DNA of 37,628 nucleotides from Acidobacteriota bacterium. Lineage in GTDB: Bacteria; Acidobacteriota; UBA6911. Below are positions 8,411 to 35,862 of this stretch, piece after piece (position 1 is the stretch's first letter; each line of letters opens with the position of its first letter). Below the pieces are notes generated by a model. That model did no database searches. It was not told the origin of the DNA and was given only the letters and a program-made list of their open reading frames with translations. The stretch is from the NCBI GenBank assembly GCA_003225335.1, contig QHZE01000256.1, positions 1 to 37,628 of the forward strand, read 5' to 3'. The position numbers and the translations under genes were made by a program.

Positions 8411-8416
8411 ATCTTC

Positions 8417-8510
8417 AATTGCGGATTGCGGATTTGTAGCCTGCTCTGAACTCAGGAACTCGCAATCCGAAATCCGAAATTTGGAGATCCGAAATCCAAA
8501 ATCCGAAATT
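8417..8510. repeat. R2 inverted repeat (GGATTGCGGATTTCGGATTG word)
   Basis: Left arm AATTGCGGATTGCGGATTT (about 8417-8435) pairs with units in the right array at 8461-8510, which carries several AATCCGAAATCC units. It fills the secY-adk spacer, ending 5 nt from the secY stop codon. Confidence 0.85.
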
Positions 8511-8514
8511 ACAC

Positions 8515-9927
8515 CTACCCTCTTCGACCGCGAATCCTCCCTTTCTTCAAAAACCCGTCATAGTGGCGCATGATCAATTGCGATTCTATTTGCTGAACCG
8601 TATCCATGGCGACGCCCACGACAATGAGGAGCGACGTTCCGCCGAAATAAAAGGTCACACCCAGCCCCGTGGTCACCCAGCTCATCCCGATGCTGGCCAG
8701 AAAATCGTCCAGAGTGGGACCGATGACAGGAATGGGCTGGACCTTGAACCCCGTCATCAGGAATTCCGGGAGCAAACAGACTAGGACCAGGTAGATAGCG
8801 CCCGCGGCCGTCAGGCGGCTGAGGATCCGGTCGATGAACTCCGCGGTTCTCTTGCCCGGACGTATCCCGGGAATGTACCCGCCGTACTTGCGGATATTGT
8901 CCGCGACTTCCATCGGGTTGAAGATAATGCTCACATAGAAGAACGCGAAGAAGATGATCCCGGTCACGTAAAGCAGGTTATAAAGCGGCATACCCTGGGC
9001 CAGCTGAGACGCCAGGCTCTTCATGAATGTGCCGGGGAAAACGACGCCCAATGTCGATGGGATCGACACGATGGATGCCGCGAAAATCACCGGGATCACA
9101 CCGCCCGAGTTCACTCTCAACGGCAGGTGGGTGGCCTGCCCGCCGTAGACCTTCCGGCCCACGACACGCTTGGCATACTGGACCGGGATCTTGCGTTGTC
9201 CCCGTTCCACAAAAACGACCGCAGCCACGACGAGAATCATGACCACAAGCAGGATGATCACGGTGAACAGCGACCAGGTGCGCTGTTGCACGTTGACTAT
9301 GATGTCATGGATCGCGCGCGGCAGACCGGCCACAATCCCGGCAAAGATTATCAGGCTGATCCCGTTGCCGATTCCTCGCTCGGTGATCTGCTCTCCCACC
9401 CACATGATGAACGCGGTCCCTGTCGTCAGGGTAATCATCACCATGAAACGAAAGTACCAACCTGGCGCTTCCACGATCTGCGGCCCCGTGCCTCCGGACT
9501 TCTCGAGGGCGACGGCAGTCATGAATCCCTGGAACATCGTCAGCACCACGGTCAGGTAGCGCGTATACTGGGTTATCTTCCTGCGGCCCAGCTCCCCTTC
9601 TTTTGAGAGCTTTTCCAGGTGCGGGACGACCAGCGTGGCCAGCTGAAGAATGATCGAAGCCGTTATGTAAGGCATGATCCCCAGTGCGAAGATGCTGAAA
9701 CGACGGAGATTTCCTCCCGAAAAGATGTCCAGAAAGCCGAAGATCGTACCCGATTGCGCCTGGAAGAGCTGCTCCAGAGCCGAATGGTTAATGCCCGGAG
9801 TGGGAATGTACGCTCCGATGCGGTAGACCGCGAGGAGCCCCAGCATGAACAGGACCCGATTGCGCAGGTCCGGAATGCTGAAGATGTTCTTGATGGAGCT
9901 AAATAACGGACTTCGTTCTTCTGGCAT
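8515..9927 (-). CDS. secY: Protein translocase subunit SecY
   Basis: Channel-forming subunit of the SecYEG translocon in the inner membrane (470 residues, ten predicted membrane helices). The plug/TM2 region GIMPYITASIILQL, the LGRRKITQYTRY loop, the QRKIPVQYAKR cytoplasmic loop and the NPMEVADNIRKYGGYIPGIRPG loop are all present, as is the late GGTSLLIVVGVAMDT helix. It lies between rplO and adk as in the spc operon. Confidence 0.98.
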   Translation of the reverse strand: MPEERSPLFSSIKNIFSIPDLRNRVLFMLGLLAVYRIGAYIPTPGINHSALEQLFQAQSGTIFGFLDIFSGGNLRRFSIFALGIMPYITASIILQLATLVVPHLEKLSKEGELGRRKITQYTRYLTVVLTMFQGFMTAVALEKSGGTGPQIVEAPGWYFRFMVMITLTTGTAFIMWVGEQITERGIGNGISLIIFAGIVAGLPRAIHDIIVNVQQRTWSLFTVIILLVVMILVVAAVVFVERGQRKIPVQYAKRVVGRKVYGGQATHLPLRVNSGGVIPVIFAASIVSIPSTLGVVFPGTFMKSLASQLAQGMPLYNLLYVTGIIFFAFFYVSIIFNPMEVADNIRKYGGYIPGIRPGKRTAEFIDRILSRLTAAGAIYLVLVCLLPEFLMTGFKVQPIPVIGPTLDDFLASIGMSWVTTGLGVTFYFGGTSLLIVVGVAMDTVQQIESQLIMRHYDGFLKKGRIRGRRG

Positions 9928-9970
9928 CTCTTTCCACCCGTTCGGCGGGACCGCAGAAATCCGTCGCAGA

Positions 9971-10085
9971 GGCGAGAGGTTCGGAGTTCAGCCTTCAGGC
10001 TGCACAACGCCCGGGCAGGCTAAAGCCTGAACTCCGAACCCCTCGCCCCTACGACAGGCTGATTTTTTCACGCGTTCCGACGGAT
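9971..10085. repeat. Nested repeat: R1 copy B within outer arms, followed by R10
   Basis: The R1 hairpin (9982-10036: TTCAGCCTTCAGGCTGC ... GCAGGCTAAAGCCTGAA) is nested inside a second pair of arms, GGCGAGAGGTT (9971-9981) and AACCCCTCGCC (10037-10047). An R10 unit CTACGACAGG + CTGATTTTTTCACG follows to about 10085. Together they fill the rplO-secY spacer. Confidence 0.85.
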
Positions 10086-10104
10086 TACGATCCGCAGACC
10101 TTTA

Positions 10105-10560
10105 CTACCGATCGCTTATGATTTCGACCGAGCCTCCTGCTTTTTGAATTTTTTCGGCTGCGCTCTTGCTGAACTTATGGGCGCGAACAATGAGCGCGTG
10201 TTTTAGTTCTCCGTTCCCCAGAACCTTGAGACCGTCACGAAGGTCTTTCACGATTCCCCTTTCTGTCAGGACTTGAGGATCCAGGGTGGATCCGGCGACG
10301 AACCTGCCGAGCACGTCGACGTTCACTATCGCGTATTCCTTTCGAAAAATATTTGTGAAACCGCGCTTGGGCAACCGGCGGTGCAGGGGCATCTGCCCTC
10401 CCTCAAATCCGGCGCGGACAGAGGTGCCCGAACGGGATTTTTGCCCCTTGTATCCTCGAGTGGCAGTCTTGCCGTGACCGCTACCTATACCCCTGCCGAC
10501 GCGTTTGTTCTTCCTGTTGGCCCCTTTGGGCGGCGCGATGTTGTTCAGCGCAATTGGCAT
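10105..10560 (-). CDS. rplO: 50S ribosomal protein L15
   Basis: Late-assembly 23S rRNA-binding protein (151 residues). The Gly/Arg-rich N-terminal segment ([20 protein letters not shown]) and [12 protein letters not shown] are followed by the C-terminal domain with [20 protein letters not shown]. It starts 9 nt after the rpmD stop codon. Confidence 0.98.
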
Positions 10561-10569
10561 GACGTTTTC

Positions 10570-10776
10570 CTATCTGGACTCCACAATAGTCACAAGGTGG
10601 GGTATCTTCGCCACCATCCCGCGAATCGCCGGAGTATCCATGCGCGTTACTACCTGGTTAAGGCGCTTGAAACCGAGACTCTTCACCACCAGCTTGTGCT
10701 TCATCGGTGAACCGATGGCGCTCCTGACGTACTTGATCTGGATCGTCGCCCCCTTTTTCCCGGCCTTCTCTGTCAT
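10570..10776 (-). CDS. rpmD: 50S ribosomal protein L30
   Basis: A 68-residue large-subunit protein, IQIKYVRSAIGSPMKHK then VVKSLGFKRLNQVVTRMDTP (20-residue window) and IRGMVAKIPHLV. It has a slightly longer basic N-terminus than the E. coli form. It starts 2 nt after the rpsE stop codon, indicating tight coupling. Confidence 0.97.
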   Translation of the reverse strand: MTEKAGKKGATIQIKYVRSAIGSPMKHKLVVKSLGFKRLNQVVTRMDTPAIRGMVAKIPHLVTIVESR

Positions 10777-10778
10777 CG

Positions 10779-11273
10779 CTACAACCCCTCCGCCTGTTTG
10801 CCAAGCATCTTGGCGACATCGGCCGGATTCCTCAGCTGCTTCAAACCGTCAAAGGTAGCCTTCACGACGTTGTGCGGGTTCGTGCTTCCGAGGGACTTCG
10901 TCAGTATGTTGGAAATCCCGGCAGACTGAACCACGGCGCGCACGGGGCCTCCGGCGATAACGCCCGTCCCTTCCGACGCCGGCTTCAACATTACCCTTCC
11001 CGCTCCGTAACGACCCACAACAGCATGAGGAATAGTGCGTCCTTTCAGAGGAACCCGGATCAAATTCTTGCGAGCCTGTTCGACGCCCTTGCGAATGGCT
11101 TGAGGCACCTCCTTGGCCTTTCCCATCCCGTAGCCGACAATGCCATTTTGATCCCCAACCACTACAAGAGCGCTAAAGCTCAGGTTCTTCCCACCCTTTA
11201 CGACTTTTGTGACACGATTGATCGAAACTACCTGGTCCTTCAGCTCCAGAACATTCACGTCGATCCTTTCCAA
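10779..11273 (-). CDS. rpsE: 30S ribosomal protein S5
   Basis: Small-subunit protein involved in decoding accuracy and mRNA entry-channel helicase activity (164 residues). The double-stranded RNA-binding-like domain has [16 protein letters not shown]-type sequence and [20 protein letters not shown]; the C-terminal half carries [20 protein letters not shown] and [16 protein letters not shown]. It is separated from rplR by an unusually long 360-bp spacer. Confidence 0.98.
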
Positions 11274-11633
11274 GCTGCCTCCCTCAACACTGCTCGTTCA
11301 AGTCAAGCATGACTAAGACCAGGTTTGGAGCTCAGAAGGGTCGCCCGCCCGGTCAATAAGTAACGCGGACTCGCGGGCGGCCACGCGGGGCCACCCCTAG
11401 GAGACGTGGATTTTCTCACAGCTTCTGAGGCCTCACTCTTCACTAGTGGGTGTCTTGACTTATCTCGGCCTACGAGATCTGGACTTTTTCACAACGTCTG
11501 ACGCTCCGTGACAGCGGCGACCAATGACAAATTTCTCGTCTCTGCCTGCCAACGCAATTTGTCATTCTTCATTTGCCATTTCTCCTTTGTCATTGAACGA
11601 CCGATGCGTCAGATCCACACGGATTGAGCGGCA
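11274..11633. repeat. 360-bp spacer made of R10 and R6 repeat remnants
   Basis: No coding sequence is visible. 11335-11412 contains TCGCCCGCCCGG and CGGGCGGCCACGCGGGGCCA, an imperfect palindrome, then the R10 tail CTAGGAGACGTGGATTTTCT. A diverged second R10 tail CTACGAGATCTGGACTTTTT begins near 11471. From about 11521 the R6 word appears: CCAATGACAAATTTC and its complement AATTTGTCATTCTTCATTTG plus TTTGTCATTG (to about 11597). The spacer separates rplR from rpsE, genes that normally nearly abut. Confidence 0.75.
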
Positions 11634-12002
11634 TCAGAACCTCAATCCGTTTTCCCGGGCTGCGTCGGCCAGCGCCTTGACGCGGCCGTGATACAGGTAC
11701 CCTCCCCGGTCAAACACCACGGTCTCGATCCCTTTGGCCCGGGCCCTTTCGGCGATAGCTTTCCCCACAAGCTTCGCAGCCGCGATGTTTCCTCCCGAGC
11801 CTGCCGATGACCGGAGCCCCGCATCGGCCGTCGAAGCGGACACCACGGTTGTTCCACGCCTGTCGTCGATCACTTGCGCGTAGATATGTTTCAAGCTGCG
11901 GAAAACACAGAGTCGCGGCCGCTCCGGTGTGCCGTCTATCTTTCTGCGAATCCGCCTGTGAATTCTGGTGCGCTCGTGAGCGCGGTCCCTTGGACTAATC
12001 AT
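11634..12002 (-). CDS. rplR: 50S ribosomal protein L18
   Basis: 5S rRNA-binding protein of the central protuberance (122 residues). Family text [35 protein letters not shown] and the end [19 protein letters not shown] are clear. Its ATG overlaps the rplF stop codon by one base (TAATG), consistent with translational coupling. Confidence 0.98.
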
Positions 12003-12562
12003 TATGCCCCCTTCTTCCCTACCTTGAGGCGAATGACTTCACCGGCATAGCGAATCCCCTTCCCTTTATACGCGTCCGGCCTCCGCAGCGCCCTTATGTC
12101 CGCCGCAACCTGGCCCACCAGTTGCTTGTTCGCGCCTGAGACAATCAGCGTTACCGCGTAATTCTGGAGGGGTTTCTGTTGCTTTTCGACCTTGACGGAG
12201 ATTCCTTCAGGAATCGGAAACTCGATCGGATGGGAGTAACCCAGGTTGAGCGTCACCGATCTGGGCTTGGCGTCGGCCTTGAATCCGATGCCCACGATGT
12301 CCAAGTCCTTCGTGAAACCTTCCGTCACGCCACGGACGTTGTTCGCGGCAAGCGCCCGGGCCAGCCCATGGTAGGCGGGATACGGCTTCTCGTCGGACTC
12401 ACGCATGGCGACAAGCTCGCTCCCCTTCAGCTCAAACCGGATTCGGGGCGGAATAGGGCTGGTAAGCTTCCCCTTTTTCCCCTCTACTTCCAGCACCCCG
12501 TCCCGCACGGCTACCTTGACCCCTGCCGGAATCTTGATGGGTTTCTTTCCTACTCGTGACAT
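12002..12562 (-). CDS. rplF: 50S ribosomal protein L6
   Basis: Large-subunit protein near the factor-binding site (186 residues). Two tandem L6 domains are visible: [17 protein letters not shown], then [36 protein letters not shown] and the ending [16 protein letters not shown]. It is preceded by an R2 repeat spacer after rpsH. Confidence 0.98.
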
Positions 12563-12570
12563 GACGTCTC

Positions 12571-12633
12571 CAATTTCGGATTGCGGATTGCGGATTGAAA
12601 GACATCATCGACCCAATCCGAAATCCGAAATCC
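12571..12633. repeat. R2 inverted repeat
   Basis: Left array CAATTTCGGATTGCGGATTG plus CGGATTG (12571-12597), right array CAATCCGAAATCCGAAATCC (about 12614-12633), loop about 16 nt. It fills the rpsH-rplF spacer, ending close to the rpsH stop codon (12638). Confidence 0.9.
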
Positions 12634-12637
12634 ACAC

Positions 12638-13036
12638 CTAGCTGATCGCACAGAGCACTTCTCCACCAATTCCCTTCTCCTGCGCTTGCTTGCCCGTGAG
12701 CACTCCCTGTGACGTGGAAAGTATGCAGATACCCATCCCGCCAAGAATCGAGGGAATGGAACCTTTGTTCGCATAAACGCGGCAGCCCGGGCGGCTCACA
12801 CGCGCCACAGCGCTGATCACGGGCTGTTTGCCCGGCGCATAGCGGAGGGTGACCTGGATCGCGCCCTGTTTGTTATCCCGGTTATAGGCGTAATTGGCGA
12901 TGTAGCCCTCCTCCTTGAGAATCCGAACAATCTCAAGCTTGATCTTAGAAGAAGGAATCACCACGGTTTCGTGCTTGGCCCCGATCGCGTTGCGGAGCCG
13001 GATCAAGAGATCGGCTATGGGATCAGTCATGGTCAT
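12638..13036 (-). CDS. rpsH: 30S ribosomal protein S8
   Basis: 16S rRNA-binding central-domain protein (132 residues); in E. coli it is the translational repressor of the spc operon. It begins MTMTDPIADLLIRLRNA and ends with VYANKGSIPSILGGMGICIL, STSQGVLTGKQAQEKGIGGE. Twelve nucleotides separate it from rpsN. Confidence 0.98.
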   Translation of the reverse strand: MTMTDPIADLLIRLRNAIGAKHETVVIPSSKIKLEIVRILKEEGYIANYAYNRDNKQGAIQVTLRYAPGKQPVISAVARVSRPGCRVYANKGSIPSILGGMGICILSTSQGVLTGKQAQEKGIGGEVLCAIS

Positions 13037-13048
13037 AATATGCGCTCC

Positions 13049-13234
13049 TTACCAGCTCGATTTAGTGACACCAGGTATTTCGCCAGAAAGGGCCAGGTTG
13101 CGAAAGCAAATACGACAAAGCTGAAATTTCCTATAGTATCCACGCGGGCGCCCGCAACGCTGGCAGCGGTTGTGCGCACGCACGCGAAATTTGGGCTTCT
13201 TCCTGGCCTTTGCAATCATGCTGGTCTTCGCCAC
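13049..13234 (-). CDS. rpsN: 30S ribosomal protein S14, type Z (zinc-binding)
   Basis: A 61-residue small-subunit head protein. The zinc knuckle is CQRCGRP and CRICFR (Cys pairs at about 24/27 and 40/43), the short C+ type. Start GTG 13234 is chosen: it gives the exact 61-residue family length ([16 protein letters not shown], initiator Met) and is preceded at 5 nt by AAAGGGG. The frame is open further upstream only because the adjoining R2 repeat happens to lack stops there. Confidence 0.95.
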
Positions 13235-13247
13235 ATCAACCCCTTTC

Positions 13248-13307
13248 GATTTCGGATTGCGGATTGCGGATTTCGGATTGAAAATCCGCAATCCGCAATC
13301 CGCAATT
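13248..13307. repeat. R2 inverted repeat exactly bounded by the rplE stop codon
   Basis: Left array GATTTCGGATTGCGGATTGC and onward to about 13279; right array AATCCGCAATCCGCAATCCG to 13307. Read on the minus strand, the repeat begins at the first base after the rplE TAG (13308-13310) and ends at the Shine-Dalgarno of rpsN, so it is the entire spacer. Confidence 0.95.
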
Positions 13308-13859
13308 CTATTGTTGGCCTTTCTTGGCGAAAGGCATACCCAGATGCCTCAAGAGCTCGTAGGCCTCATCGTCCGACTTTGCCGTGGTCACGATTGTGAT
13401 GTTCATCCCACGCGCCTTATCGGCCTTTCCGAAGTCGATCTCGGGAAAGATCAACTGGTCTCGCAGGCCGAGCGTATAGTTCCCCCTTCCATCGAAGGCA
13501 CGGGGGGACACGCCGCGGAAATCGCGCACTCTCGGCAGGGCGGCGTTCACCAGCCGATCCAGGAATTCGTACATCCGGTCACCGCGCAGAGTAACGGTGA
13601 CGCCGATGGGCATCCCTTGCCGGAGCTTGAAGGCCGCGATGGACTTTTTTGCCTTGGTGACCACCGGGCGCTGCCCGGTTATGGCGCCCAGTTCGTCGGA
13701 CGCCACATCGAGCAACTTGGCATTTGTAATCGCCTCGCCCAGACCCATGTTGATGTTTATCTTCACGAGCTTGGGTACCGCCATGACGTTGCCATAACCG
13801 AAATGCTTTGTGAGGGCGGACACAACCTCCGCCTTATATAATTCCCGCAATCTGCTCAT
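13308..13859 (-). CDS. rplE: 50S ribosomal protein L5
   Basis: 5S rRNA-binding protein of the central protuberance that touches P-site tRNA (183 residues). Recognisable text: [64 protein letters not shown] and the ending [15 protein letters not shown] 13859 matches the family start; an ATG six codons upstream (13877) is in frame. Confidence 0.97.
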
Positions 13860-13875
13860 GAACCAACCCTCTTCC

Positions 13876-13944
13876 ATTTCGGATTGCGGATTGCGGATTG
13901 CGGATTTTCACTCCGCAATCCGCACTCCGTAATCCGCAATCGAA
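13876..13944. repeat. R2 inverted repeat
   Basis: Left array ATTTCGGATTGCGGATTGCG to 13908, right array CCGCAATCCGCACTCCGTAA to about 13944; the tight loop is only a few bases. It lies between rplX and rplE. Confidence 0.92.
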
Positions 13945-13949
13945 AGCGC

Positions 13950-14276
13950 TCACTCATCCAGGAGCTCGTTGCAGCTCTTGCACACGCGGACTTTGCGCCC
14001 ATCCTGCATGGTGCTGGATCCCACGCGTGTGCGTTCATTGCACCGCTTGCACACCACCATGAGATTGGATATGTGGATAGATGCTTCCTTCGGCAAGATT
14101 CCGCCCTTGATGTTCTTCTGGGGATTTGCCCGGGTATGCTTTTGAATGAAGTTCAGGCCCTCGACCACCGCCCGATTCTTCTCGCGGAAGAGTCGGAGCA
14201 CCTTCCCCGTCTTTCCCCTGTCCTTGCCTGACAGGACATAAACCTGATCGTTTTTCTTGATATGTACGCTGGGCAT
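13950..14276 (-). CDS. rplX: 50S ribosomal protein L24
   Basis: Assembly-initiator 23S rRNA-binding protein (108 residues) with the KOW motif VYVLSGKDRGKTGKVLRLF near the N-terminus and FIQKHTRANPQKNIKGGILP. The C-terminal part has two cysteine pairs, CKRCNE and CKSCNE, compatible with a small zinc ribbon. ATG 14276 (MPSVHIKK) sits 9 nt from GGAGG; ATG 14285 is too close to that site. Confidence 0.96.
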   Translation of the reverse strand: MPSVHIKKNDQVYVLSGKDRGKTGKVLRLFREKNRAVVEGLNFIQKHTRANPQKNIKGGILPKEASIHISNLMVVCKRCNERTRVGSSTMQDGRKVRVCKSCNELLDE

Positions 14277-14302
14277 CGGTTCCATTCCTCCCGTGCCTAT
14301 TT

Positions 14303-14376
14303 GCCACAGGACACAGAGACACGGAGAACAGCGATTCTTAAATTCTTAGTTCTCTGCGCCTCCGTGCCTCTGTGGC
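14303..14376. repeat. R8 inverted repeat (CCACAGGACACAGAGACACGG word)
   Basis: Left arm GCCACAGGACACAGAGACAC on to 14329 and right arm GTTCTCTGCGCCTCCGTGCC on to 14376 are imperfect complements; inside, ATTCTTAAATTCTTAGT forms part of the loop. It lies in the rplN-rplX spacer. Confidence 0.8.
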
Positions 14377-14398
14377 GAATGGTGTTCTGTGGAAACCA

Positions 14399-14767
14399 CT
14401 AAAGCACCTCCGGAGCCAGGGAGACGATCTTCAAGAATTCCTTCTCCCGAAGCTCCCGGCTCACAGGGCCGAACACGCGCGTTCCTATGGGTTCCTTCTG
14501 GTCGTCGATCAGCACCGCAGCATTGTCGTCGAATCGGATGTACGTACCGTCCCTGCGCCGGTATTCCTTCTTCGTGCGCACTATGACGGCTTTGACCACA
14601 GCCCCCTTCTTGACCTGTCCGTCCGGCGAGGCTTCCTTCACGTTCGCCGTGATGATGTCTCCAAGGCTTGCCACCCGCCCCACTTGATTCCCCCGGGCGT
14701 GAATGCACGAGATCTTCCGGGCACCCGAGTTGTCCGCCACTTCCAATATCGTTCTCATCTGGATCAT
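14399..14767 (-). CDS. rplN: 50S ribosomal protein L14
   Basis: Large-subunit protein at the subunit interface (122 residues), beginning [18 protein letters not shown] and ending [12 protein letters not shown], with [20 protein letters not shown] and the [20 protein letters not shown] stretch. ATG 14767 gives the canonical length; thirteen extra in-frame codons upstream do not resemble the family. Confidence 0.97.
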
Positions 14768-14953
14768 GATGACTCTGCCTCCAAGTCGGACGCCGAGATC
14801 AGGCACGCGCCCAAAGCTTCGTAACGCATCAAGAGCAACGTCCTAACGGGACACGGATTTTCACAGATTCAACGGGGTTAACCTGGTGCGGCATAGCCGC
14901 AACCCCAAAAATCCCGCCGCAGAGACGCCGGGACCCGCAGAAAGAGGTTTGGC

Positions 14954-15042
14954 AAATGACCAATGAAAAATGAAAAATGACAAATCGCAGTTCGTTGTCC
15001 AGATCCCTGACTTCTATTTGTCATTGGTCATTGGTCATTTTT
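14954..15042. repeat. R6 inverted repeat (AATGACCAATGAAAAATGAC word)
   Basis: Left array AAATGACCAATGAAAAATGA on to 14985 and right array TATTTGTCATTGGTCATTGG on to 15042, complementary with shifts of one unit. It lies in the 296-bp rpsQ-rplN spacer (14768-15063), which also holds an R10-like TAACGGGACACGGATTTTCA near 14847-14866 and no visible gene. Confidence 0.85.
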
Positions 15043-15063
15043 ACTTGAGCCTCGAAGATCCAC

Positions 15064-15342
15064 CTAAGTGGACTTCTCCTTCTCCAGGATTTCCAGGACC
15101 CGCCAGCGCTTGCGTGCGCTCAGCGGTCGAGTCTCCGTAATCCGAACACGGTCACCCACCTTGCAGGAGTTCTTCTCATCATGGGCGAGAAACTTCGAAG
15201 TTCTCCTCAAGGTCTTCCTGTACAACGGATGCCGCACCAGCCGGTCGACCGCAACGGTGACCGTCTTCTGCATGGCAGTGCTGGTCACAACCCCCACCTG
15301 TGTCTTTCGTATTCCTCTCTTCTTCTCGGTCATTTCCTCCAT
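15064..15342 (-). CDS. rpsQ: 30S ribosomal protein S17
   Basis: Primary 16S rRNA-binding OB-fold protein (92 residues). Family text: [20 protein letters not shown] (20-residue window), [20 protein letters not shown] and [20 protein letters not shown]. Two ATGs compete, 15342 and 15333; the second gives the family-typical MTEKKRG start, but its GGAGG is only 2 nt away. Confidence 0.96.
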
Positions 15343-15370
15343 TCCGCTATATCCTCAGGATTCGTATCCA

Positions 15371-15528
15371 GGAATTCAGGGAATCCAAGGAATCCAGGAA
15401 ATCCGGAATGAACCGGGGGAGCCAGGCCCAGTCTTTCATTCCGGATTCCTGGATTCCTTGGATTCCCTGAATTCCCAATTTCGGATTGCGGATTGAAAGC
15501 TTTTGGTTCTCAATCCGCAATCCGAAAT
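15371..15528. repeat. Two tandem hairpins: R3 with about 42-bp arms and R2 with 19-bp perfect arms
   Basis: R3 arms 15371-15412 and 15436-15477 are complementary over about 41 bp with a single one-base bulge. R2 arms 15478-15496 and 15510-15528 are perfectly complementary over 19 bp (13-nt loop). The R2 hairpin starts on the base after the R3 hairpin ends. Together they make up nearly the whole rpmC-rpsQ spacer. Confidence 0.97.
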
Positions 15529-15541
15529 CGGAAATCCGAAA

Positions 15542-15736
15542 TCAATTCTTAAGCTCCATTTCTCTCAGCACCGTTTTGATGCGGGCGATATCCCTTCGCA
15601 CGCCGCGCGCGCGGCTTGCGCTTTCCAGCTGTCCTGTAGCCGCTTCGAAGCGCAATTTGAACAACTGCGCCCGGAGTTCCTCTTCTTCGTGAATCAAGTC
15701 CTCTCTGGACATCTCTCGCAGCTTCGAGGGTTTCAT
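15542..15736 (-). CDS. rpmC: 50S ribosomal protein L29
   Basis: A 64-residue two-helix protein at the tunnel exit. It reads [20 protein letters not shown] and then [20 protein letters not shown], typical of L29. It starts 2 nt after the rplP stop codon. Confidence 0.96.
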
Positions 15737-15738
15737 GC

Positions 15739-16155
15739 TTAGTCCTTGCCGAACCGTTTCACGAATTTTGCCTTCACGGAAAGCTTGTGCGCCGCCAACC
15801 GCATCGCTTCCTGGGCCACGTCTTCCGGCACGCCTTCCATTTCGTAGATGATCTTGCCTGGCCGGATCACAGCCACCCAGCCCTCCGGGGCTCCCTTGCC
15901 CTTGCCCATTCGGGTTTCGGCCGGCTTCTTCGTGATGGGCTTATCCGGGAAAACCCGGATCCATATTTTCCCGCCGCGCTTGATAAAGCGCGTGATTGCC
16001 ACGCGTCCCGCTTCGATCTGCCGGTCGGTCAGCCATCCCGGCTCCAGGGCCTTCAGGCCATAATCGCCAAAGGTTACATCCGAACCGCGCCAGGCCTTGC
16101 CACGGCGCTTCCCTTTTTGCTGCCTTCGATATTTGACCTTCTTCGGCATCAACAT
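15739..16155 (-). CDS. rplP: 50S ribosomal protein L16
   Basis: Late-assembly protein near the A-site tRNA elbow (138 residues). It has the N-terminus [40 protein letters not shown] and the conserved RIRVFPDKP-type segment [23 protein letters not shown] 16155 matches the family; upstream in-frame codons derive from an R2 half-array. Confidence 0.97.
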
Positions 16156-16173
16156 CTTCTGCCACTCTCCCGA

Positions 16174-16197
16174 CTCCGCAATCCGCAATCCGCAATC
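16174..16197. repeat. R2 half-array next to the rpsC stop codon
   Basis: Three CCGCAATC units without an opposing arm, touching the rpsC TAA (16198-16200). This copy is one-sided. Confidence 0.8.
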
Positions 16198-16857
16198 TTA
16201 ACGCGCTCTTTCCGGCCTTTCCGGCTTCTGCATCTCAAAGACTTCGCCTTTGTAGATCCACACCTTGACGCCAATGACGCCGTAAGTCGTGAACGCCTGC
16301 GCGAAACCGTAATCGATGTCGGCGCGCAAAGTGTGCAGGGGGAGCTGCCCGTGAAGGTACCACTCCGACCGCGCGATTTCTGCGCCGTTCAATCGTCCTC
16401 CAACCCGCACCTTGATTCCCTTGGCCCCGAAACGCAGCGTGCTGTCGACGGCGCGTCGCATGGCGCGTCTGAAGGCGATCCGTTTTTCCAGCTGCTGCGC
16501 GATCCCCTCTCCCACAAGCTGGGCATCAAGTTCCGGTTTGTTAATTTCCTGAATCCTGAGATTGATCTCCCTGCCGGTGAGAGTCTGAAGATCCTTCTTG
16601 AGTTTCTCGATCTCGGTGCCTTTCTTTCCCACGATGATTCCAGGCCGCGAAGTGAATATGATGACCGTAAGCTTGTTGGCCGCCCGCTCGACTTCGATTC
16701 TGGAGATTCCCGCATGGGCAAACTTCTTCTTGAGCATCGCCTTCAGATTGAGATCCTCGTGAAGGAGGGCGCCGTAATCCTTGCGCGCAAACCAGCGCGA
16801 GCGCCACGTCCGATTGATACCCAATCTGAAACCGTAAGGATGGACTTTCTGACCCAA
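16198..16857 (-). CDS. rpsC: 30S ribosomal protein S3
   Basis: Small-subunit head protein forming the mRNA entry channel (219 residues). It contains [20 protein letters not shown], the KH domain [20 protein letters not shown] (with the GxxG loop) and the C-terminal [20 protein letters not shown]. The start is TTG at 16857, six bases after a perfect AAGGAGG; no ATG exists at the family start, and the frame upstream is R2 sequence. Confidence 0.97.
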
Positions 16858-16870
16858 GGCCGGCCTCCTT

Positions 16871-16933
16871 ATTTCGGATTGCGGATTGTGGATTGCGGAT
16901 TGATCGCGAGATCCGCAATCCTGAATTGGCAAT
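16871..16933. repeat. R2 inverted repeat
   Basis: Left array ATTTCGGATTGCGGATTGTG to 16900, right array ATCCGCAATCCTGAATTGGC to 16933. It ends 8 nt from the AAGGAGG of rpsC. 16934-16994 holds nothing recognised. Confidence 0.88.
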
Positions 16934-16994
16934 CTGATAAAGCTGTGCGCCAAAATCCCCTCAACAACACCCCCAAAAACAAATACGGAAGCAC

Positions 16995-17351
16995 TTACCC
17001 TTCTTCCTTTGCCTCGCCTTTGATGACGATGGTGATGTGCTTATAGCGGCGCTGTTGTTTGTAGGCCCGCCCCATGGGCGCCGCACGCATTCTTCGGCGC
17101 CATTTGGTTGGCCCCATGTCCACCACCGCCTTGGTTACAGTAAAGCTGTCGATATCTGCGCCGGCGAACTTCTCGTGGGCATTCGAGACGGCGGAGAGCA
17201 AAACTTTCTCTATCGATCGGGTCGCCCGCTTCTTGGTAAAGCGCAGGAGGGTGAGAGCCTGCTGCACATTCTTGCCACGTATCAGGTCTATCACCAGCCG
17301 CGCCTTCTGCGGCGAGCCCCGAAGGTAATTTCCTCTGGCTGTTGCTTCCAT
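16995..17351 (-). CDS. rplV: 50S ribosomal protein L22
   Basis: Tunnel-lining 23S rRNA-binding protein (118 residues). It starts [20 protein letters not shown], contains [20 protein letters not shown] and the C-terminal hairpin [23 protein letters not shown] 17351 fits the family; the upstream in-frame codons are R3 repeat. Confidence 0.96.
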
Positions 17352-17362
17352 ATCTTCCAGCT

Positions 17363-17440
17363 GGGAATCCAGAATCCAGAATTCAGAATCCAGAAGAACC
17401 AACGTCCATTCTGGATTCTGAATTCTGGATTCTGAATTCC
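17363..17440. repeat. R3 inverted repeat, about 32-bp arms
   Basis: Arms 17363-17395 and 17409-17440 are complementary with one or two mismatches; loop 13 nt. It occupies the rpsS-rplV spacer, 7 nt from the rpsS stop codon. Confidence 0.95.
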
Positions 17441-17446
17441 TTCTCC

Positions 17447-17743
17447 TCAGGCCGGCGGCTTCACGGCCGTTGTCTTCTCTGCCACCTTTGTCGTATGCCC
17501 CTTGAAGATGCGGGTGGGCGCGAACTCCCCCAATTTGTGACTTACCATGTTCTCGGAGATGTAGATCGGGATGAATTTCTTTCCGTTATGAACCGCAATG
17601 GTCAGCCCGACCATTTCCGGAATGATGGTGGAGCGGCGGGACCACGTCTTAATCACCGTTCTGCTGCTGGCGCCGGCGCTAGTGTGAACCTTCTTAAGAA
17701 GGTGCGCGTCAACGAATGGCCCCTTTTTTACAGATCTCCCCAT
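17447..17743 (-). CDS. rpsS: 30S ribosomal protein S19
   Basis: Small-subunit head protein (98 residues) next to S13. It reads [39 protein letters not shown] and ends [17 protein letters not shown], with the usual [12 protein letters not shown]. It lies 12 nt after rplB. Confidence 0.98.
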
Positions 17744-17755
17744 GAAGCACGCCTC

Positions 17756-18577
17756 CTAGTTGCGATGCTTGATGATGAAATGTTCGGTGCGCTTGTTGTT
17801 TCGCGTCTTGTAACCTTTCGTCGGAAGGCCCCACGGGCTTACGGGGTGGCGCCCTCCGGAGGTCTTGCCTTCACCTCCGCCGTGAGGATGGTCGATTGGG
17901 TTCATCGCCACCCCGCGCACAGTCGGCCTGATCCCGAGCCACCGGCTGCGCCCGGCCTTCCCGATCGATTGATTCTCATGGTCGAGGTTACCGACCTGAC
18001 CGATGGTCGCATAGCATTCCAGATGAACCATTCTCGTCTCGCCCGACGGAAGTTTGATCTGGGCATAGCCGGCCTCCTTGGCGAGAAGTTGCACTGCCAT
18101 TCCCGCGGCGCGAGCCAGCTGTCCGCCCTTTCCCGCTCGAAGCTCTATGTTATGAACCATCGTGCCCAGCGGAACGTTGCGCAGCGGAAGGGCATTGCCC
18201 ACGAGGATATCGGCGCCGTCGCCCGCAATCACTGTCGCGCCTACGGCCAAGCCGTGCGGAGCCAGAATGTAGCGTTTCTCCCCGTCGGCGTAGGTCAACA
18301 GCGCAATTCGCGCCGACCTGTTCGGATCGTATTCGAGAGTCGTGACCTTCGCAGGAATATCCCGCTTGTCCCGGCGGAAGTCGAGAATGCGGTACAAGCG
18401 CTTATGTCCCCCACCCCGGTGCCTGACCTGGATGTGCCCCTTGTTGTCCCTCCCGGAAATCCGCTTCTTCGGCGCCGTGAGACCTTTTAAGGGGCGCACC
18501 TTCGTCACGTCTTCGTTTGTCAGTGTCGTTCGAAACCGTATCGCCGGCGACGTCGGCCGATAAGTCTTGATCCCCAT
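17756..18577 (-). CDS. rplB: 50S ribosomal protein L2
   Basis: Universal large-subunit protein required for subunit association and peptidyl transferase (273 residues). It begins [19 protein letters not shown] and has [20 protein letters not shown], the [12 protein letters not shown] segment and the conserved C-terminal [19 protein letters not shown] containing the functional His of the [16 protein letters not shown] motif. Confidence 0.98.
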
Positions 18578-18590
18578 GATTCCCTCATCT

Positions 18591-18676
18591 CGATTGACGA
18601 TTGACGATTAAAAGCGACTGATAGGACCGTCGCTGCAAGTTCACTCGTCATTCGTCAATCGTCATTCGTCAATCGG
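18591..18676. repeat. R7 inverted repeat (CGATTGACGATTGACGATT word)
   Basis: Left array 18591-18609 and right array CGTCATTCGTCAATCGTCAT to 18676. The right array ends on the base next to the rplW TAA (18677-18679). Loop about 36 nt. It is the rplB-rplW spacer. Confidence 0.9.
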
Positions 18677-18970
18677 TTAGACCGCCCCCGCGAATTCGAC
18701 CATCTTTTCACCCTTCCTCAGGGTGACGTAAGCTTTTTTCCAATCCGGCCGGTGCCCGCTGTAGCGCCCCTGCCTGCGCATCTTGCCGTGGAAGTTAGCG
18801 GTTCGAACGCTCGCGACTTTGACCTTGAAGATCTTCTCCACCGCGTTCTTGATCTCCTGCTTGGTTGCACGTCGGGCTACCTTAAACGTCAGGGTATGAA
18901 GGTTATCCTTGACGAACGTGCTCTTCTCGGTTACGACAGGAGTCTTGAGAACGTCGTATCGTAGGCTCAT
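18677..18970 (-). CDS. rplW: 50S ribosomal protein L23
   Basis: Tunnel-exit protein that docks trigger factor and SRP (97 residues). It has VLKTPVVTEKSTFVKDN, FKVARRATKQEIKNAVEKIF (20 residues), and HGKMRRQGRYSGHRPDWKKA. Its ATG shares a base with the rplD stop codon. Confidence 0.97.
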   Translation of the reverse strand: MSLRYDVLKTPVVTEKSTFVKDNLHTLTFKVARRATKQEIKNAVEKIFKVKVASVRTANFHGKMRRQGRYSGHRPDWKKAYVTLRKGEKMVEFAGAV

Positions 18971-19593
18971 CAGCTCAATACCTCCTGCACCTGAAGGATC
19001 GCCCGCTTTGAGAAAATCAACATCTGATGATTCACCACGTCGTAAATGTTGACGCCGGTCCCCGGCACCATCTTTGCTTTGGGAAGATTCCGGGACGAGA
19101 GCTGGAGGTTGTGATTCTCCTCCGAATCGACGATGAGCACCTTCTGGTCGCCCGCCAGACCGCGCAGAATCCTGTCGAACTCCTTGGTCTTGTGACTGCC
19201 CAGCGCGAATTCGTCCACGACCGTGATCCGGTTCTCCTCGAGTTTCGCGGAGAGGGCCGAACGCAGCGCGCCGCGCAGCTTTTGTCTCGGAAAACGATAC
19301 GCATAGCTCCGCGGTTTCGGACCGTGCACCGTCCCGCCGTGTCTCCAGAGCGGGCTCCGGATGCTCCCTATGCGAGCCCGCCCGGTGCCTTTTTGGCGCC
19401 AGAGTTTTTTTCCGCTGCCGCTGACTTCCGCCCGTGTCTTCGTGGAAGCTGTTCCGCTGCGCCGGGAATCCCTGTAATGCTTTACGGCCTCCCAGATGAG
19501 GGTTTCGTTGATCTTGACTTTGAACACCTCGTCGGACAGCTCCAGCTTGCCCACGACTTCACTCGCCAGGTTCTTTACTTCTATCTCAGCCAT
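18970..19593 (-). CDS. rplD: 50S ribosomal protein L4
   Basis: Tunnel-lining protein; in E. coli also autoregulator of the S10 operon (207 residues). It contains GTASTKTRAEVSGSGKKLWR, QKGTGRARIGSIRSPLWRHG and PRSYAYRFPRQKLRGALRSA. Only a weak Shine-Dalgarno is seen because the R3 repeat begins 10 nt upstream of the ATG. Confidence 0.97.
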   Translation of the reverse strand: MAEIEVKNLASEVVGKLELSDEVFKVKINETLIWEAVKHYRDSRRSGTASTKTRAEVSGSGKKLWRQKGTGRARIGSIRSPLWRHGGTVHGPKPRSYAYRFPRQKLRGALRSALSAKLEENRITVVDEFALGSHKTKEFDRILRGLAGDQKVLIVDSEENHNLQLSSRNLPKAKMVPGTGVNIYDVVNHQMLIFSKRAILQVQEVLS

Positions 19594-19603
19594 TGATTAT
19601 CCG

Positions 19604-19694
19604 GGAATCCAAGAATTCAAGAATCCAAGAATGAGAAGCGACGCCGCCATGTCCATTATTCTTGAATTCTTGGATTCTTGAATTCTTGGATTCC
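19604..19694. repeat. R3 inverted repeat, 29-bp perfect arms
   Basis: Arm 19604-19632 is perfectly complementary to 19666-19694. The right side has an additional TTCTTGAA unit (19656-19665), another case of one-unit slippage. It lies between rplC and rplD and reaches the rplD ribosome-binding region. Confidence 0.97.
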
Positions 19695-19723
19695 TCCATC
19701 CCTTCATCCATAAACAGTCCATA

Positions 19724-20353
19724 CTATGACTTCCTTATGATCACGTAGCCGCCGTTACGGCCGGGAACGGCTCCCTTGACTAGGAGCAGGTTTTCCTGAT
19801 CCATGATCCGGACTACCTGGAGCTTTCGGACCGTAACCCTGGCATTTCCCATATGCCCCGCAGCCCGCATTCCCGGAAGGACCCGGCTGGGAAACGCAGA
19901 AGCCCCGATGGATCCGGGGGCGCGATGGAACATGGAGCCGTGTGTTGCCGCGCCTCCGCGGAAATGATGGCGCTTGACCAAGCCCGCGAATCCCCGCCCT
20001 TTGCTGGTTCCGACCACATCCACGTTGTCGCGCACTTGGAAAACCTGGTTGACGAGTATCTGGTCCCCTGGTTTGATAGCGTCACTGCCGTCTTCGAAGC
20101 GAAACTCCCGGAGAACACGGACCGGCGGGACTCCCGCCTTCTCGAAGCGCCCGGCCAGGGGCTTGTTGACGCGATCGGGCCGAACAAACTCCACAAGTCC
20201 GAGCTGGACCGCATCGTAACCGTCTTTCTCCTTGACCTTCTTCTGGACCACGACACAAGGACCGGCCTTGATCACGGTGACGGGAGTGACCGTCCCATTC
20301 TCTTCAAATACCTGAGTCATTCCCACCTTAATTCCAATCAGTCCGTCGACCAT
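19724..20353 (-). CDS. rplC: 50S ribosomal protein L3
   Basis: Early-assembly protein near the peptidyl transferase centre (209 residues). It begins [20 protein letters not shown] and carries [40 protein letters not shown] (with the Gln-methylation region replaced by the usual variant) and [12 protein letters not shown] at the end. ATG 20353 fits; upstream in-frame codons are R2 repeat. Confidence 0.97.
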
Positions 20354-20362
20354 GGTCGTCTC

Positions 20363-20441
20363 GATTGCGGATTTCCGATTTCGGATTTCGGATTGCGGAT
20401 TGCGGATTTGAAAGATTAATCCGCAATCCGAAATCCGAAAT
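20363..20441. repeat. R2 inverted repeat bounded by the rpsJ stop codon
   Basis: Left array GATTGCGGATTTCCGATTTC to 20409, right array ATTAATCCGCAATCCGAAAT to 20441, ending on the base beside the rpsJ TAG (20442-20444). It begins about 10 nt before the rplC ATG, leaving no clear Shine-Dalgarno. Confidence 0.95.
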
Positions 20442-20768
20442 CTACTTGTGTTCTGTGCCGAAGGCTTTGATCTCCACGTCAATCGCGGCCGGAAGATCGA
20501 GCTTCATCAGGGCATCGACTGTTTGAGGCGTTGGCTCCAGAATATCCACCAACCGCTTGTGCGTGCGAATTTCAAACTGTTCGCGGGATTTCTTGTCCAC
20601 GTGAGGAGAACGCAGCACGCAGAACTTGTTCTTCACAGTAGGGAGCGGTATAGGCCCCGACACTCGAGAACCGGTTCTCTTGGCGATGTCAACGATCTCC
20701 GAGGTGGACTGGTCGAGCACACGGTAATCGTAAGCCTTCAGCCTGATTCTTATTTTTTCGTTAAGCAT
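20442..20768 (-). CDS. rpsJ: 30S ribosomal protein S10
   Basis: Small-subunit head protein, also the NusE antitermination partner of NusB (108 residues). Text: [60 protein letters not shown] and [12 protein letters not shown]. It is the first gene of the S10 group, directly after tuf. Confidence 0.98.
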
Positions 20769-20804
20769 AACCGGCTCTCTCGTATCCCTCTCTCTACGGG
20801 TACC

Positions 20805-20886
20805 GAAGAATCCAAGAATTCAAGAATTCAAGAATAAAGTCCAATCAGTCTTTCAGACGTTCATTCCTTGGATTCTTGAATTCTTT
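20805..20886. repeat. R3 inverted repeat beside the tuf stop codon
   Basis: Left array GAAGAATCCAAGAATTCAAG to 20835, right array ATTCCTTGGATTCTTGAATT to 20886, touching the tuf TAG (20887-20889). Confidence 0.92.
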
Positions 20887-32710: not shown

Positions 32711-33850
32711 ATGGCAACCAAGTCTAAAGCTCGCGTTGCTTTGCTCATTGCAACACGCAAAGGCGCTTTCATGCTGAGCAGTGACAGTTTGCGCCGGGAT
32801 TGGAAGCTTTCGGCCCCAATAATGCTGGGCAACATCGTCCACCACATTGTCCTCGATCCGCGAGATAGGCGAACCATTTTGATGGCCGCCCGAACCGGCC
32901 ACCTGGGTCCGACGGTTTTTCGTTCCGCCGATTTCGGCAAGAAGTGGAAGGAGGCCGAAAAACCTCCCGCTTTTCCCAAGGCGGAGGAAGGCCAGAAAGG
33001 CCTCGTACTGGACCACGTTTTCTGGCTCGCTCCCGCACATGCGAGCGAAGCGGGAGCGTGGTATGCCGGTTCCTCCCCGCAGGGATTGTTCCGCTCCGAA
33101 GACGAAGGCACGAGTTGGGAAGGCGTGGCGGGGTTCAATCAGAATCCGATGCGGGAGACCTGGACCGGCGGAGAGAGGGACGGCACGCCGGACGGGCCGA
33201 AGATGCACTCGATTCTGATCGACCCGCGAGATCCCAACCACATGTATATCGGGATGTCCAGCGGGGGCGTTTTCGAGAGCAGGAACAAAGGAGTCAGCTG
33301 GAAGCCTTTAAACCAGGGGTGCGCCGCCGATTTCATTCCGATTCCCGACCCGGAATACGGACATGATCCGCACTGCGTCCGGCTTCACCCCCTGATGCCC
33401 GACCGCCTGTATCAGCAGAACCACTGCGGCATCTACCGCATGGAACGGGCGGAAGGCCGCTGGATCCGCATCGGAAAGAATATGCCGAAGAAGGTCGGCG
33501 ATATCGGCTTTCCTCTCGCCCTGCACCCGCGCGACCCGGATACGGTCTGGGTCTTCCCGATGGATGGAACCGCCGTCTGGCCACGGACGAGTCCGGAGGG
33601 CAAACCTGCTGCGTACGTCACGAGAAACGCGGGCAAAACGTGGAAGCGCCAGGACAACGGACTGCCGAGCAGCCAGGCATGGTGGACCGTCAAGCGGCAG
33701 GCCATGACGGCCGACACGCGCGATCCGGTCGGAATATATTTCGCGACCACGAGCGGGGAGGTTTGGGGCACCCGCAACGAAGGCGAGCGCTGGACGTGCC
33801 TTGCGCGGCACCTGCCTCACGTTTATTCGGTCGAGGTCGCAGAATTCTGA
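32711..33850 (+). CDS. BNR/Asp-box-type beta-propeller (sialidase-like fold) protein
   Basis: A 379-residue protein with repeated Asp-box-like motifs (SADFGKKWKEA, SEDEGTSWEGV, SRNKGVSWKPL, TRNAGKTWKRQ, TRNEGERWTCL), each closing a propeller blade. There is no signal peptide, so it is predicted cytoplasmic, unlike secreted sialidases. Candidate functional residues are in HSILIDPRDPNHMYIGMSSG, YGHDPHCVRLHPLMPDRLYQ and QQNHCGIYRM, rich in His, Asp and Cys. The real activity is unknown. The next gene encodes a MoaD/ThiS-like carrier protein, suggesting that the two work together. AGGAGG precedes the ATG at 5 nt. The stop TGA touches an R5 repeat. Confidence 0.82.
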   Translation: MATKSKARVALLIATRKGAFMLSSDSLRRDWKLSAPIMLGNIVHHIVLDPRDRRTILMAARTGHLGPTVFRSADFGKKWKEAEKPPAFPKAEEGQKGLVLDHVFWLAPAHASEAGAWYAGSSPQGLFRSEDEGTSWEGVAGFNQNPMRETWTGGERDGTPDGPKMHSILIDPRDPNHMYIGMSSGGVFESRNKGVSWKPLNQGCAADFIPIPDPEYGHDPHCVRLHPLMPDRLYQQNHCGIYRMERAEGRWIRIGKNMPKKVGDIGFPLALHPRDPDTVWVFPMDGTAVWPRTSPEGKPAAYVTRNAGKTWKRQDNGLPSSQAWWTVKRQAMTADTRDPVGIYFATTSGEVWGTRNEGERWTCLARHLPHVYSVEVAEF

Positions 33851-33923
33851 TCAGACTTCAGACCTCAGACCTAATCCTCCTCAGGTCTGTAGTATGAGGT
33901 CGGAGGTCTGAGGTCTGAAGTCT
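33851..33923. repeat. R5 inverted repeat (TCAGACTTCAGACCTCAGAC word), intact copy
   Basis: Left arm TCAGACTTCAGACCTCAGAC (33851-33870) begins on the base after the propeller TGA. The loop contains CTAATCCTCCTCAGGTCTG, and the right arm GAGGTCGGAGGTCTGAGGTC on to 33923 pairs back. It separates the propeller and MoaD-like genes. Confidence 0.93.
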
Positions 33924-33944
33924 TAGACAAAGAGGCTCAAATTC

Positions 33945-34262
33945 ATGAAGGTATTTGTACCTACACCGCTGAGGTCGTACACGCGAGAGGAGAGCGTGGT
34001 CGAGGGATCGGGTTCGAGTCTGGCGGAATTGCTGGCCGATATGGATCGCCGCTATCCCGGATTTCGCTTTCGTATTATTGACGAGCAGGACGGAATCCGG
34101 CAGCACATCAAGATCTTTGTAAATCAGGAGCAGGCAGGCACGTTGAAAGCCCCTCTAAGGTCGAGCGACGAGATTCATATCATCTGCGCGCTGAGCGGCG
34201 GGTCAGACTTCAGACCTCAGACTTCAGACATCAGACCTCAGACTAATCCTCCTTGGGTCTGA
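33945..34262 (+). CDS. MoaD/ThiS-like sulfur-carrier-type protein with repeat-encoded tail after the diglycine
   Basis: A ubiquitin-like beta-grasp protein. Residues 1-86 form a complete domain: MKVFVPTPLRSYTRE, LAELLADMDRRYPGFRFRII, HIKIFVNQEQAGTLKAPLRS, DEIHIICALSGG. MoaD, ThiS and their relatives end at this GG, whose terminal Gly is adenylated and thiolated by an E1-like enzyme. Here the frame runs on for 19 residues (SDFRPQTSDIRPQTNPPWV) entirely encoded by an R5 repeat (34203-34262), and the TGA is also repeat sequence. The carrier therefore has a blocked C-terminus unless the tail is cleaved. It follows the propeller gene on the same strand. No adenylating partner is in the window. Confidence 0.85.
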   Translation: MKVFVPTPLRSYTREESVVEGSGSSLAELLADMDRRYPGFRFRIIDEQDGIRQHIKIFVNQEQAGTLKAPLRSSDEIHIICALSGGSDFRPQTSDIRPQTNPPWV

Positions 34263-34470
34263 CTTCGTGAACGCTGTTCTCGGGGGGTGCAATTACAAGT
34301 GGGAGCCTTTAACTCTCTGGAGAGTTTTTAATAATCGTGAAAACCGCCGCGAATTGCACGAATTTCACGAAAGGATCACCTCAAGGTAGCGCCGAAAAAA
34401 TTTGACTCCCACTTGCCTAATCCTCCTCGGGTCTGATGTCTGAGGTCTGAAGTCGGAGGTCTGAGGTCCG
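34203..34470. repeat. R5 hairpin split by a 154-bp insertion flanked by a 20-bp direct repeat
   Basis: The left arm (34203-34242) plus the loop word CTAATCCTCCTTGGGTCTGA (34243-34262), and the loop word CTAATCCTCCTCGGGTCTGA (34417-34436) plus the right arm to 34470, would make one R5 hairpin like that at 33851. Between the two loop copies (19 of 20 identical) lies 34263-34416, with an internal inverted repeat CAAGTGGGAG (34296-34305) / CTCCCACTTG (34406-34415) and a GAATTGCACGAATTTCACGA segment. The right arm ends at the TGA of the convergent oxidoreductase gene. Confidence 0.85.
34311..34330 (+). terminator. Possible weak intrinsic terminator after the MoaD-like gene
   Basis: AACTCT, 4-nt loop, AGAGTT followed by TTTAATAA. 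The stem is short and AT-rich, so termination strength is doubtful. Confidence 0.3.
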
Positions 34471-35739
34471 TCAGACGTTGTAGAGGTTCTGACTGATTTC
34501 CAGAATTTTGGTCTGCTTCACGGCCTCATCGGCCTTCAGAATCGCGGTTGCGGCCTTCAAGCCTTCTTCTCCGTCGCACAGGTTGGGTTCGCCGTTTCGA
34601 ATGGTCCGGGCGAAGCCTTCGAGCTCCAGTCTATAAGCGCTTACGGCGCTCAAGCCTGATCCCGTTCCGCTGACGGAGTTCCCCGCCGCGTCTCTCCCGC
34701 GGCTCTCCGACGCTTCCATCACCGGTCCGCCCTTGTCCGCCTTGACCTCCAGTTCCGAGGCTTTTCCCCGGTCCCCTTCCATGAACAGGAGCGCTTCCGT
34801 CTCGCCACCGAGGATGATGGTCCCCTTCGTCCCCATGAATTCCTCGTAGTAGTGGTCGTAGGCGTTGGACTGGATCGACGAATAGGTCACTGTCAGATTG
34901 TTGGGGTACTGGAAGATGGCATAAAGGTGATCGAACACTTCGCGGCCGTCTTTGTACCGGTATACTCCGCCCGTGCCGACCACGCTCTGCGGAACATTTC
35001 CCGCGAACCAGTTGATCGCGTGAATCTGGTGGCTGCACAGCTCCGACATCAGCCCGTGGGAGTACTTGTTATAGAGCCGCCAGTTGACCAGCTGCTCGAT
35101 GCTGTCGTAGCCCCACGGGCGGGGATCGAACTTTGGGTCCTCGATTTTCCGCCGCCAATCTCCATTCCGGTGCCACAGGGCGCGAACGTGGTAGATCTCG
35201 CCGATCGTTCCGTTTTTGATAAGCTCGTGGGCCTGGTGGTACAGGGGATTGTACGCGCGCTGATGGCCGATCTGCAGGTTCTTACGGGCCGATCTTGCCG
35301 CCTGGATCATCTTCTTGCAGTCGTCGACCGTGTAGGCCATGGTCTTTTCGCAGAACACGTGTTTGCCGGCCTGCAGAGCATCAACGGCCATCTGCGAATG
35401 CATCCACAGCGGCGCTGCGATCAAGACTGCTTCGATATCTTTGCGCTCGAGAAGCTTTCGGTAATCCGAATGCCCTTCGGCATTCGGATCGTGGTTTCTC
35501 TTGGCAATGTCCAGCCCTCTAAGCAGATTGGGCGGGAAGATGTCGCATACGGCCACGAGCTTGATGAAATTGGGATTGCAATTTTCCATCAGCACCCGGC
35601 CCTGCCCTCCCGGCCCGATGATTCCGGCAGTGACCGGTCGTAGCGAAGCCGCCTTCCACAACAGGGCTCCTGCGGCCGGCAGGGTGGCGACCGCTTTTAT
35701 GAAGTTTCTGCGGCCAAGCTGTCTTTCTTGTTCCGTCAT
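34471..35739 (-). CDS. Tat-exported Gfo/Idh/MocA-family oxidoreductase
   Basis: NAD(P)-dependent sugar or polyol dehydrogenase-like protein, about 422 residues. The N-terminus has a twin-arginine signal GRRNFIKAVATLPAAGALL, so export to the periplasm with bound cofactor is predicted. The Rossmann domain starts TAGIIGPGGQGRVLM; the family EKP-like motif reads HVFCEKTMAYTVDDC, and the catalytic-His segment is SELCSHQIHAINWFAG. The C-terminal alpha/beta domain has YDHYYEEFMGTKGTIILGGE. Start ATG 35739 is chosen over ATG 35748 because GAGG is 9 nt upstream of it. The stop codon borders the R5 repeat. Substrate unknown; glycoside or inositol-type substrates are usual. Confidence 0.92.
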   Translation of the reverse strand: MTEQERQLGRRNFIKAVATLPAAGALLWKAASLRPVTAGIIGPGGQGRVLMENCNPNFIKLVAVCDIFPPNLLRGLDIAKRNHDPNAEGHSDYRKLLERKDIEAVLIAAPLWMHSQMAVDALQAGKHVFCEKTMAYTVDDCKKMIQAARSARKNLQIGHQRAYNPLYHQAHELIKNGTIGEIYHVRALWHRNGDWRRKIEDPKFDPRPWGYDSIEQLVNWRLYNKYSHGLMSELCSHQIHAINWFAGNVPQSVVGTGGVYRYKDGREVFDHLYAIFQYPNNLTVTYSSIQSNAYDHYYEEFMGTKGTIILGGETEALLFMEGDRGKASELEVKADKGGPVMEASESRGRDAAGNSVSGTGSGLSAVSAYRLELEGFARTIRNGEPNLCDGEEGLKAATAILKADEAVKQTKILEISQNLYNV

Positions 35740-35862
35740 GGGAAACATCCTCTACAGAGCTGAGTTAAGTACACCAATCCGAAAATACGATGATGTATTA
35801 GCCGGGTCCTCTTCCCTCTTCGGTCACAACGCAACCGGTTGCACCAACACCAAAAAGCGCGG

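Follow-up and report, generated by a model that had tools for sequence, protein, structure and literature searches.

A heptad hairpin repeat extends a CysO-class carrier protein past its diglycine in an acidobacterium, giving a putative pro-form

E1 enzymes require a free terminal glycine on the carriers that they activate, as established for MoaD and ThiS. In an Acidobacteriota genome (assembly GCA_003225335.1), a carrier gene of this superfamily continues for 19 residues beyond its diglycine, raising the question of whether the tail is a propeptide, the mark of a dead gene, or an accident that the cell can tolerate. Here, we analyze the 37,628-nucleotide contig that holds the gene (QHZE01000256.1, the window), trace the tail to a hairpin repeat, and weigh the possible fates of the extended protein.

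An intact carrier core with a displaced end

At 33945-34262 an open frame specifies 105 residues and closes with a TGA at 34260-34262. The original prediction placed the end of the ubiquitin-like domain at the CALSGG motif, and coordinates, reading frame and domain profile all agree with it: CALSGG occupies residues 81-86, and the Pfam ThiS match (PF02597; scoring 38.7 bits where the cut-off is 22.5) spans residues 5-86, ending on the second glycine. The carrier gene and its upstream partner are arranged as follows:

32711..33850, + strand: BNR/Vps10-like beta-propeller protein of 379 aa, the carrier's partner gene (Pfam BNR/Sortilin-Vps10)
33945..34202, + strand: CysO/MoaD/ThiS-like carrier core, residues 1-86, ending ALSGG (Pfam ThiS 5-86; AF2; Foldseek)
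34197..34202, + strand: diglycine codons, residues 85-86 (alignment of 77 carriers)
34203..34262, + strand: 19-residue tail and TGA, supplied by the arm, loop and first opposite heptad of hairpin 2

The domain matches the ThiS/MoaD superfamily profile, and where PF02597 members end in Gly-Gly the encoded chain adds its 19 residues. Scores fall below the curated cut-offs for the MoaD equivalog TIGR01682 (12.8 vs 66.15 bits), the SAMP1 equivalog NF041918 (31.9 vs 60) and MoaD_arch TIGR01687 (33.9 vs 49.5). By sequence profile and fold, the nearest solved relatives are instead the CysO proteins of Amycolatopsis and M. tuberculosis, and the top Foldseek matches are CysO 4n6e (TM 0.89) and 3dwg. 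Structure and sequence thus place the carrier in the CysO class, while its neighborhood departs from that class, with a propeller gene adjoining it in place of cysM and a JAMM gene. The earlier MoaD/ThiS-like label holds for the PF02597 superfamily but not for the class, since the protein is neither MoaD nor ThiS proper. An AF2 model is confident over the core and disordered from residue 85 on, with tail pLDDT below 50.

Relatives were gathered through the upstream propeller gene, which yielded 80 loci from Rokubacteria, Nitrospirae, Proteobacteria, Acidobacteria, Planctomycetes, Myxococcota and other groups. A carrier gene lies downstream of the propeller in 78 of the 80 loci, mostly overlapping it or within a few dozen bases, and 77 carriers are complete (L101, which runs off its contig, was left out). 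As originally predicted, the diglycine is the normal C-terminus. In the orthologue alignment that the prediction had proposed, the stop follows GG directly in 71 of the 77 complete carriers, among them the G061 carrier, which reads GGCGGATAG; four others add a single residue (V, A, C or D), and the diglycine itself is invariant across the 77 aligned carriers, the window's included. None of the 77 complete carriers shares a tail with the window's carrier, and we rejected a conserved tail among orthologues. One relative, L061, carries a 17-residue tail (1936-1986) after GG on a well conserved core; this tail contains no repeats and is unrelated. Its host is a not closely related acidobacterium whose rpoA is 66% identical to the window's.

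The window's carrier retains 25 of 27 conserved columns (at least 85% conservation), the exceptions being I5V and L33M. Measured against that of the propeller, its divergence ranks 29 of 77, an ordinary value, and this comparison revealed no accelerated carrier evolution. Judged from its sequence, the gene is an otherwise ordinary CysO-class sulfur/ubiquitin-like carrier with an intact core.

Propeller and CysO-class carrier form a compact two-gene unit conserved across many phyla. Across phyla no third gene is conserved next to the pair; wider synteny is confined to particular taxa, Betaproteobacteria and Cupriavidus (from scans of which the first relied on a poor choice of ORFs). More distant pairs occur within the phylum (L015/L044, L016/L045, L050 and L051). 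In L022/L039 (G111:C44, 1907-3274) carrier and propeller are fused in one chain with an internal GG. The damaged carrier among the 77, in L078 (5110-5362) beside a propeller gene, has an internal deletion and a changed second glycine and has probably decayed. The window's propeller protein has no signal peptide evident by eye. The papers searched held no relevant description of a propeller-MoaD pairing; Iyer et al. 2006 (PMC1779556) list a carrier-E1-JAB-cysteine synthase operon in Solibacter and do not mention propellers.

A hairpin repeat encodes the tail

The tail reads SDFRPQT SDIRPQT NPPWV, in frame after ALSGG. Its DNA consists of TCAGACN heptads, a pattern matched 14 times in the window against 0.11 expected and reached that often in 0 of 100 shuffled windows, which bears out the earlier claim that a repeat carries the frame 19 residues past GG. 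Translation follows a hairpin. It passes through one arm, where every 21 nt yield S-D-x-R-P-Q-T, crosses the loop, and ends in the opening heptad of the opposite arm at the TGA of GTCTGA. The remaining features of the locus lie on either side of the carrier gene:

33851..33924, no strand: heptad hairpin 1, (TCAGACY)3 - TAATCCTCCTC - (RGTCTGA)n, between the propeller and carrier genes
34263..34416, no strand: dispersed repetitive element with inverted ends AAGTGGGAG...CTCCCACTT, inside the loop of hairpin 2
34417..34468, no strand: loop remnant and opposite arm of hairpin 2, 38 nt of it 89% complementary to the tail-coding arm
34471..35748, - strand: convergent gene, a putative Gfo/Idh oxidoreductase by its translated sequence

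The two arms have opposite coding properties. Whichever of the three frames is used, the (TCAGACY)n arm has no stop and translates to one cyclic peptide, SDLRPQT, and the (RGTCTGA)n arm presents a TGA; this independence of frame follows from 7 and 3 being coprime. With one arm open and the other stopping, loss of a gene's own stop at one of these hairpins adds a short SDxRPQT tail that ends just past the loop. In hairpin 1 the inverted arms are 20 nt long and 100% complementary (-47.1 kcal/mol, z -6.6). It abuts the TGA of the propeller gene and lies within a propeller-carrier gap of 94 bases, compared with a median of 2 bases in other genomes. In hairpin 2 the (RGTCTGA)n arm lies at about 34430-34468, the whole fold has a z of -5.8, and the TGA of the convergent gene also sits at the repeat edge. 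The 154-base element in its loop lies between near-identical 20-base repeats, CTAATCCTCCTYGGGTCTGA, and has 42 matches in the genome, many over query positions 70-152, with dozens of them partial. Other short-unit repeats, of GGATTGC, CAAGAATT and GGATTCTG types, occur at 6044-20840 of the window and elsewhere, where they fill gaps in the ribosomal protein cluster, often as inverted pairs, and in some cases lengthen ORF starts.

An exact 20-base probe of the heptad repeat matched 71 times in this genome. Of 79 relatives, one from the same family had five matches and one from the same class four, and the remaining 77 had zero. The repeat is nearly private to this genome or lineage. Around the arrays examined, 15 of 51 long ORFs that reach an array run in frame into it (stop more than 25 bases into the array; one spurious pairing left out; not all of these ORFs are necessarily genes). 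Five repeat-tailed genes exceed their Pfam cut-offs, encoding LysS, GalT, a Gfo/Idh oxidoreductase, HPPK and PfkB. All five lie on other contigs, and their domains end near the repeat start, the GalT match overlapping it by about four residues. The LysS proteins of relatives end 0-21 residues past FPLLRPE with no conserved end, indicating that the repeat there replaced a loosely constrained terminus. Because at least five other Pfam-confirmed genes carry such tails, the carrier's tail is no sign of a designed propeptide, and because 71 of 77 relatives stop at GG, it is derived. That the tail is a repeat-made, non-adaptive addition and not a conserved propeptide is well supported. Such a tail should be tolerable for most enzymes, but not for a carrier that needs a free glycine.

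Fate of the extended carrier

The original prediction suggested looking for a JAMM gene, and the genome contains exactly one above threshold (104 bits), with its motif HSHPDHPARPSEFD intact (H-x-H-x7-S-x2-D). It lies on another contig, between a gene for the cysteine synthase CysM and a carrier::MoeB-type E1::rhodanese fusion in which GG is internal; E1-type genes number two in the genome. A third carrier (L036; G000:C301, 4135-4434), beside a threonine synthase-like gene, ends GG-APCARIHR, eight residues past the diglycine. As encoded, none of the three carriers found in the genome ends at GG, and two of the marks of a JAMM-processed precursor, an extension after GG and an intact-motif JAMM in the genome, are present. 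Among relatives in the phylum, residues follow GG in 21 of 21 carriers that adjoin a JAMM gene versus 4 of 13 that do not (Fisher p about 1e-5, with related genomes counted as independent). In propeller-paired genomes we rejected the tail as a marker of JAMM presence, as 15 of the 16 genomes tested have a JAMM gene, tailed carrier or not.

JAMM proteases are known to cut at such sites. HvJAMM1 cleaves SAMP1-MoaE exactly after the glycine, a cleavage required in vivo, and carrier fusions are predicted to be inactive without it (PMC4443979); DRJAMM cleaves MoaD-MoaE (PMC8832034), and CsJAMM processes SAMP precursors (PMC6043591). Ubiquitin-like proteins are known to be kept as inactive precursors by flexible extensions over GG, and CsRpn11 and CsJAMM are strictly specific for their substrates (PMC6043591).

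We propose that the lineage-specific heptad hairpin came to occupy the 3' end of the carrier gene, where the stop after Gly-Gly was lost. The ribosome would read the open arm as SDxRPQT and halt where the opposite arm first presents a TGA, producing a 105-residue pro-form whose flexible tail, a by-product, would cover the diglycine. The genome's JAMM protease, encoded beside the carrier::E1 fusion with its internal GG, would cut the tail after GG, and an E1 of the MoeB type would then activate the freed glycine. In such a cell peptides containing SDFRPQTSDIRPQT would mark the 105-residue form, as against carrier peptides ending at Gly86.

On balance we lean toward this accidental, lineage-specific pro-form, plausibly matured by the JAMM protease; the carrier most likely still works because that enzyme would be able to cut after GG. 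The intact core, the ordinary rate of divergence, the second element nested in the hairpin and the presence of the JAMM gene are the reasons for favoring it. More tentatively, a spreading hairpin repeat may just have turned a free-standing carrier into a zymogen-like pro-carrier, tolerable by way of a JAMM that matures another masked carrier. Several considerations weigh against maturation. Propeller-paired carriers almost never need a protease, so the JAMM may not recognize this one; its presence does not discriminate, given the 15 of 16 genomes; and the conserved core may merely reflect a very recent tail.

Very recent inactivation, the main rival, ranks close behind. Here the repeat would have disabled the carrier by permanently masking GG and preventing adenylation, leaving a pseudogene of very recent origin whose core is intact, an outcome that we regard as a real if lesser possibility. 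The need of E1 enzymes for a free glycine and the unmasked diglycine of 71 of 77 relatives fit this account, the damaged carrier in L078 offers a parallel, and a repeat private to the lineage would have left little time for decay. Against it stand the retained, unaccelerated core and the JAMM gene; moreover, the second dispersed element within the array suggests that array and tail are not brand new, and L061 has independently acquired its 17-residue tail on a well conserved core.

An assembly or sequencing error at the repeat, with the real genome stopping after GG, is improbable. The assembly comprises 795 contigs, of which the window is one in full, and such arrays recur in it, but the tail-coding stretch is just 60 bases, within the span of single reads, and the pattern returns at the five Pfam-confirmed genes on other contigs. 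Still less probable is a function of the tail itself, such as partner binding or regulated release: extensions over GG can hold ubiquitin-like proteins inactive (PMC6043591), but unrelated enzymes gain the same heptad peptide, dictated by the DNA repeat, and no relative has the tail.

The accidental pro-form, if true, would offer a glimpse of the way in which ubiquitin-like proteins can acquire pro-forms by chance, with a concrete and testable origin for a protected precursor, in which a stop is lost to a repeat while the right protease is already in the cell. The locus also points to a widely conserved propeller and CysO-class carrier unit, undescribed in the papers searched, and to a repeat family rewriting the C-termini of many proteins within one genome.

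Comparison with known systems

The repeat resembles the TAACTGA heptamers of Beggiatoaceae, which are likewise intergenic, can overlap gene ends, and in one orientation place stops in all three frames (PMC4679880). Here, however, a single hairpin combines the two orientations, so that from either side an open arm precedes a stop.

The carrier shares its fold with CysO of the CysO-CysM-Mec+ system of M. tuberculosis and with Amycolatopsis BexX/CysO, its closest solved relatives, and its genome also has CysM, JAMM and E1 in one cluster. Unlike CysO, it is paired with a propeller rather than CysM and is tailed after GG. In the MoaD-MoaE and SAMP1-MoaE fusions (PMC8832034, PMC4443979), GG is likewise buried in a longer chain and JAMM cuts after the glycine, but the extension there is a folded partner, whereas here it is a disordered, repeat-encoded peptide and its cutting is putative. 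The Caldiarchaeum ubiquitin and SAMP precursors (PMC6043591) come close in form, with a short extension past GG that a JAMM-family protease removes. CsUb-pre is trimmed of nine residues by the protease that partners it, whereas the tail described here is lineage-specific and common to unrelated genes.
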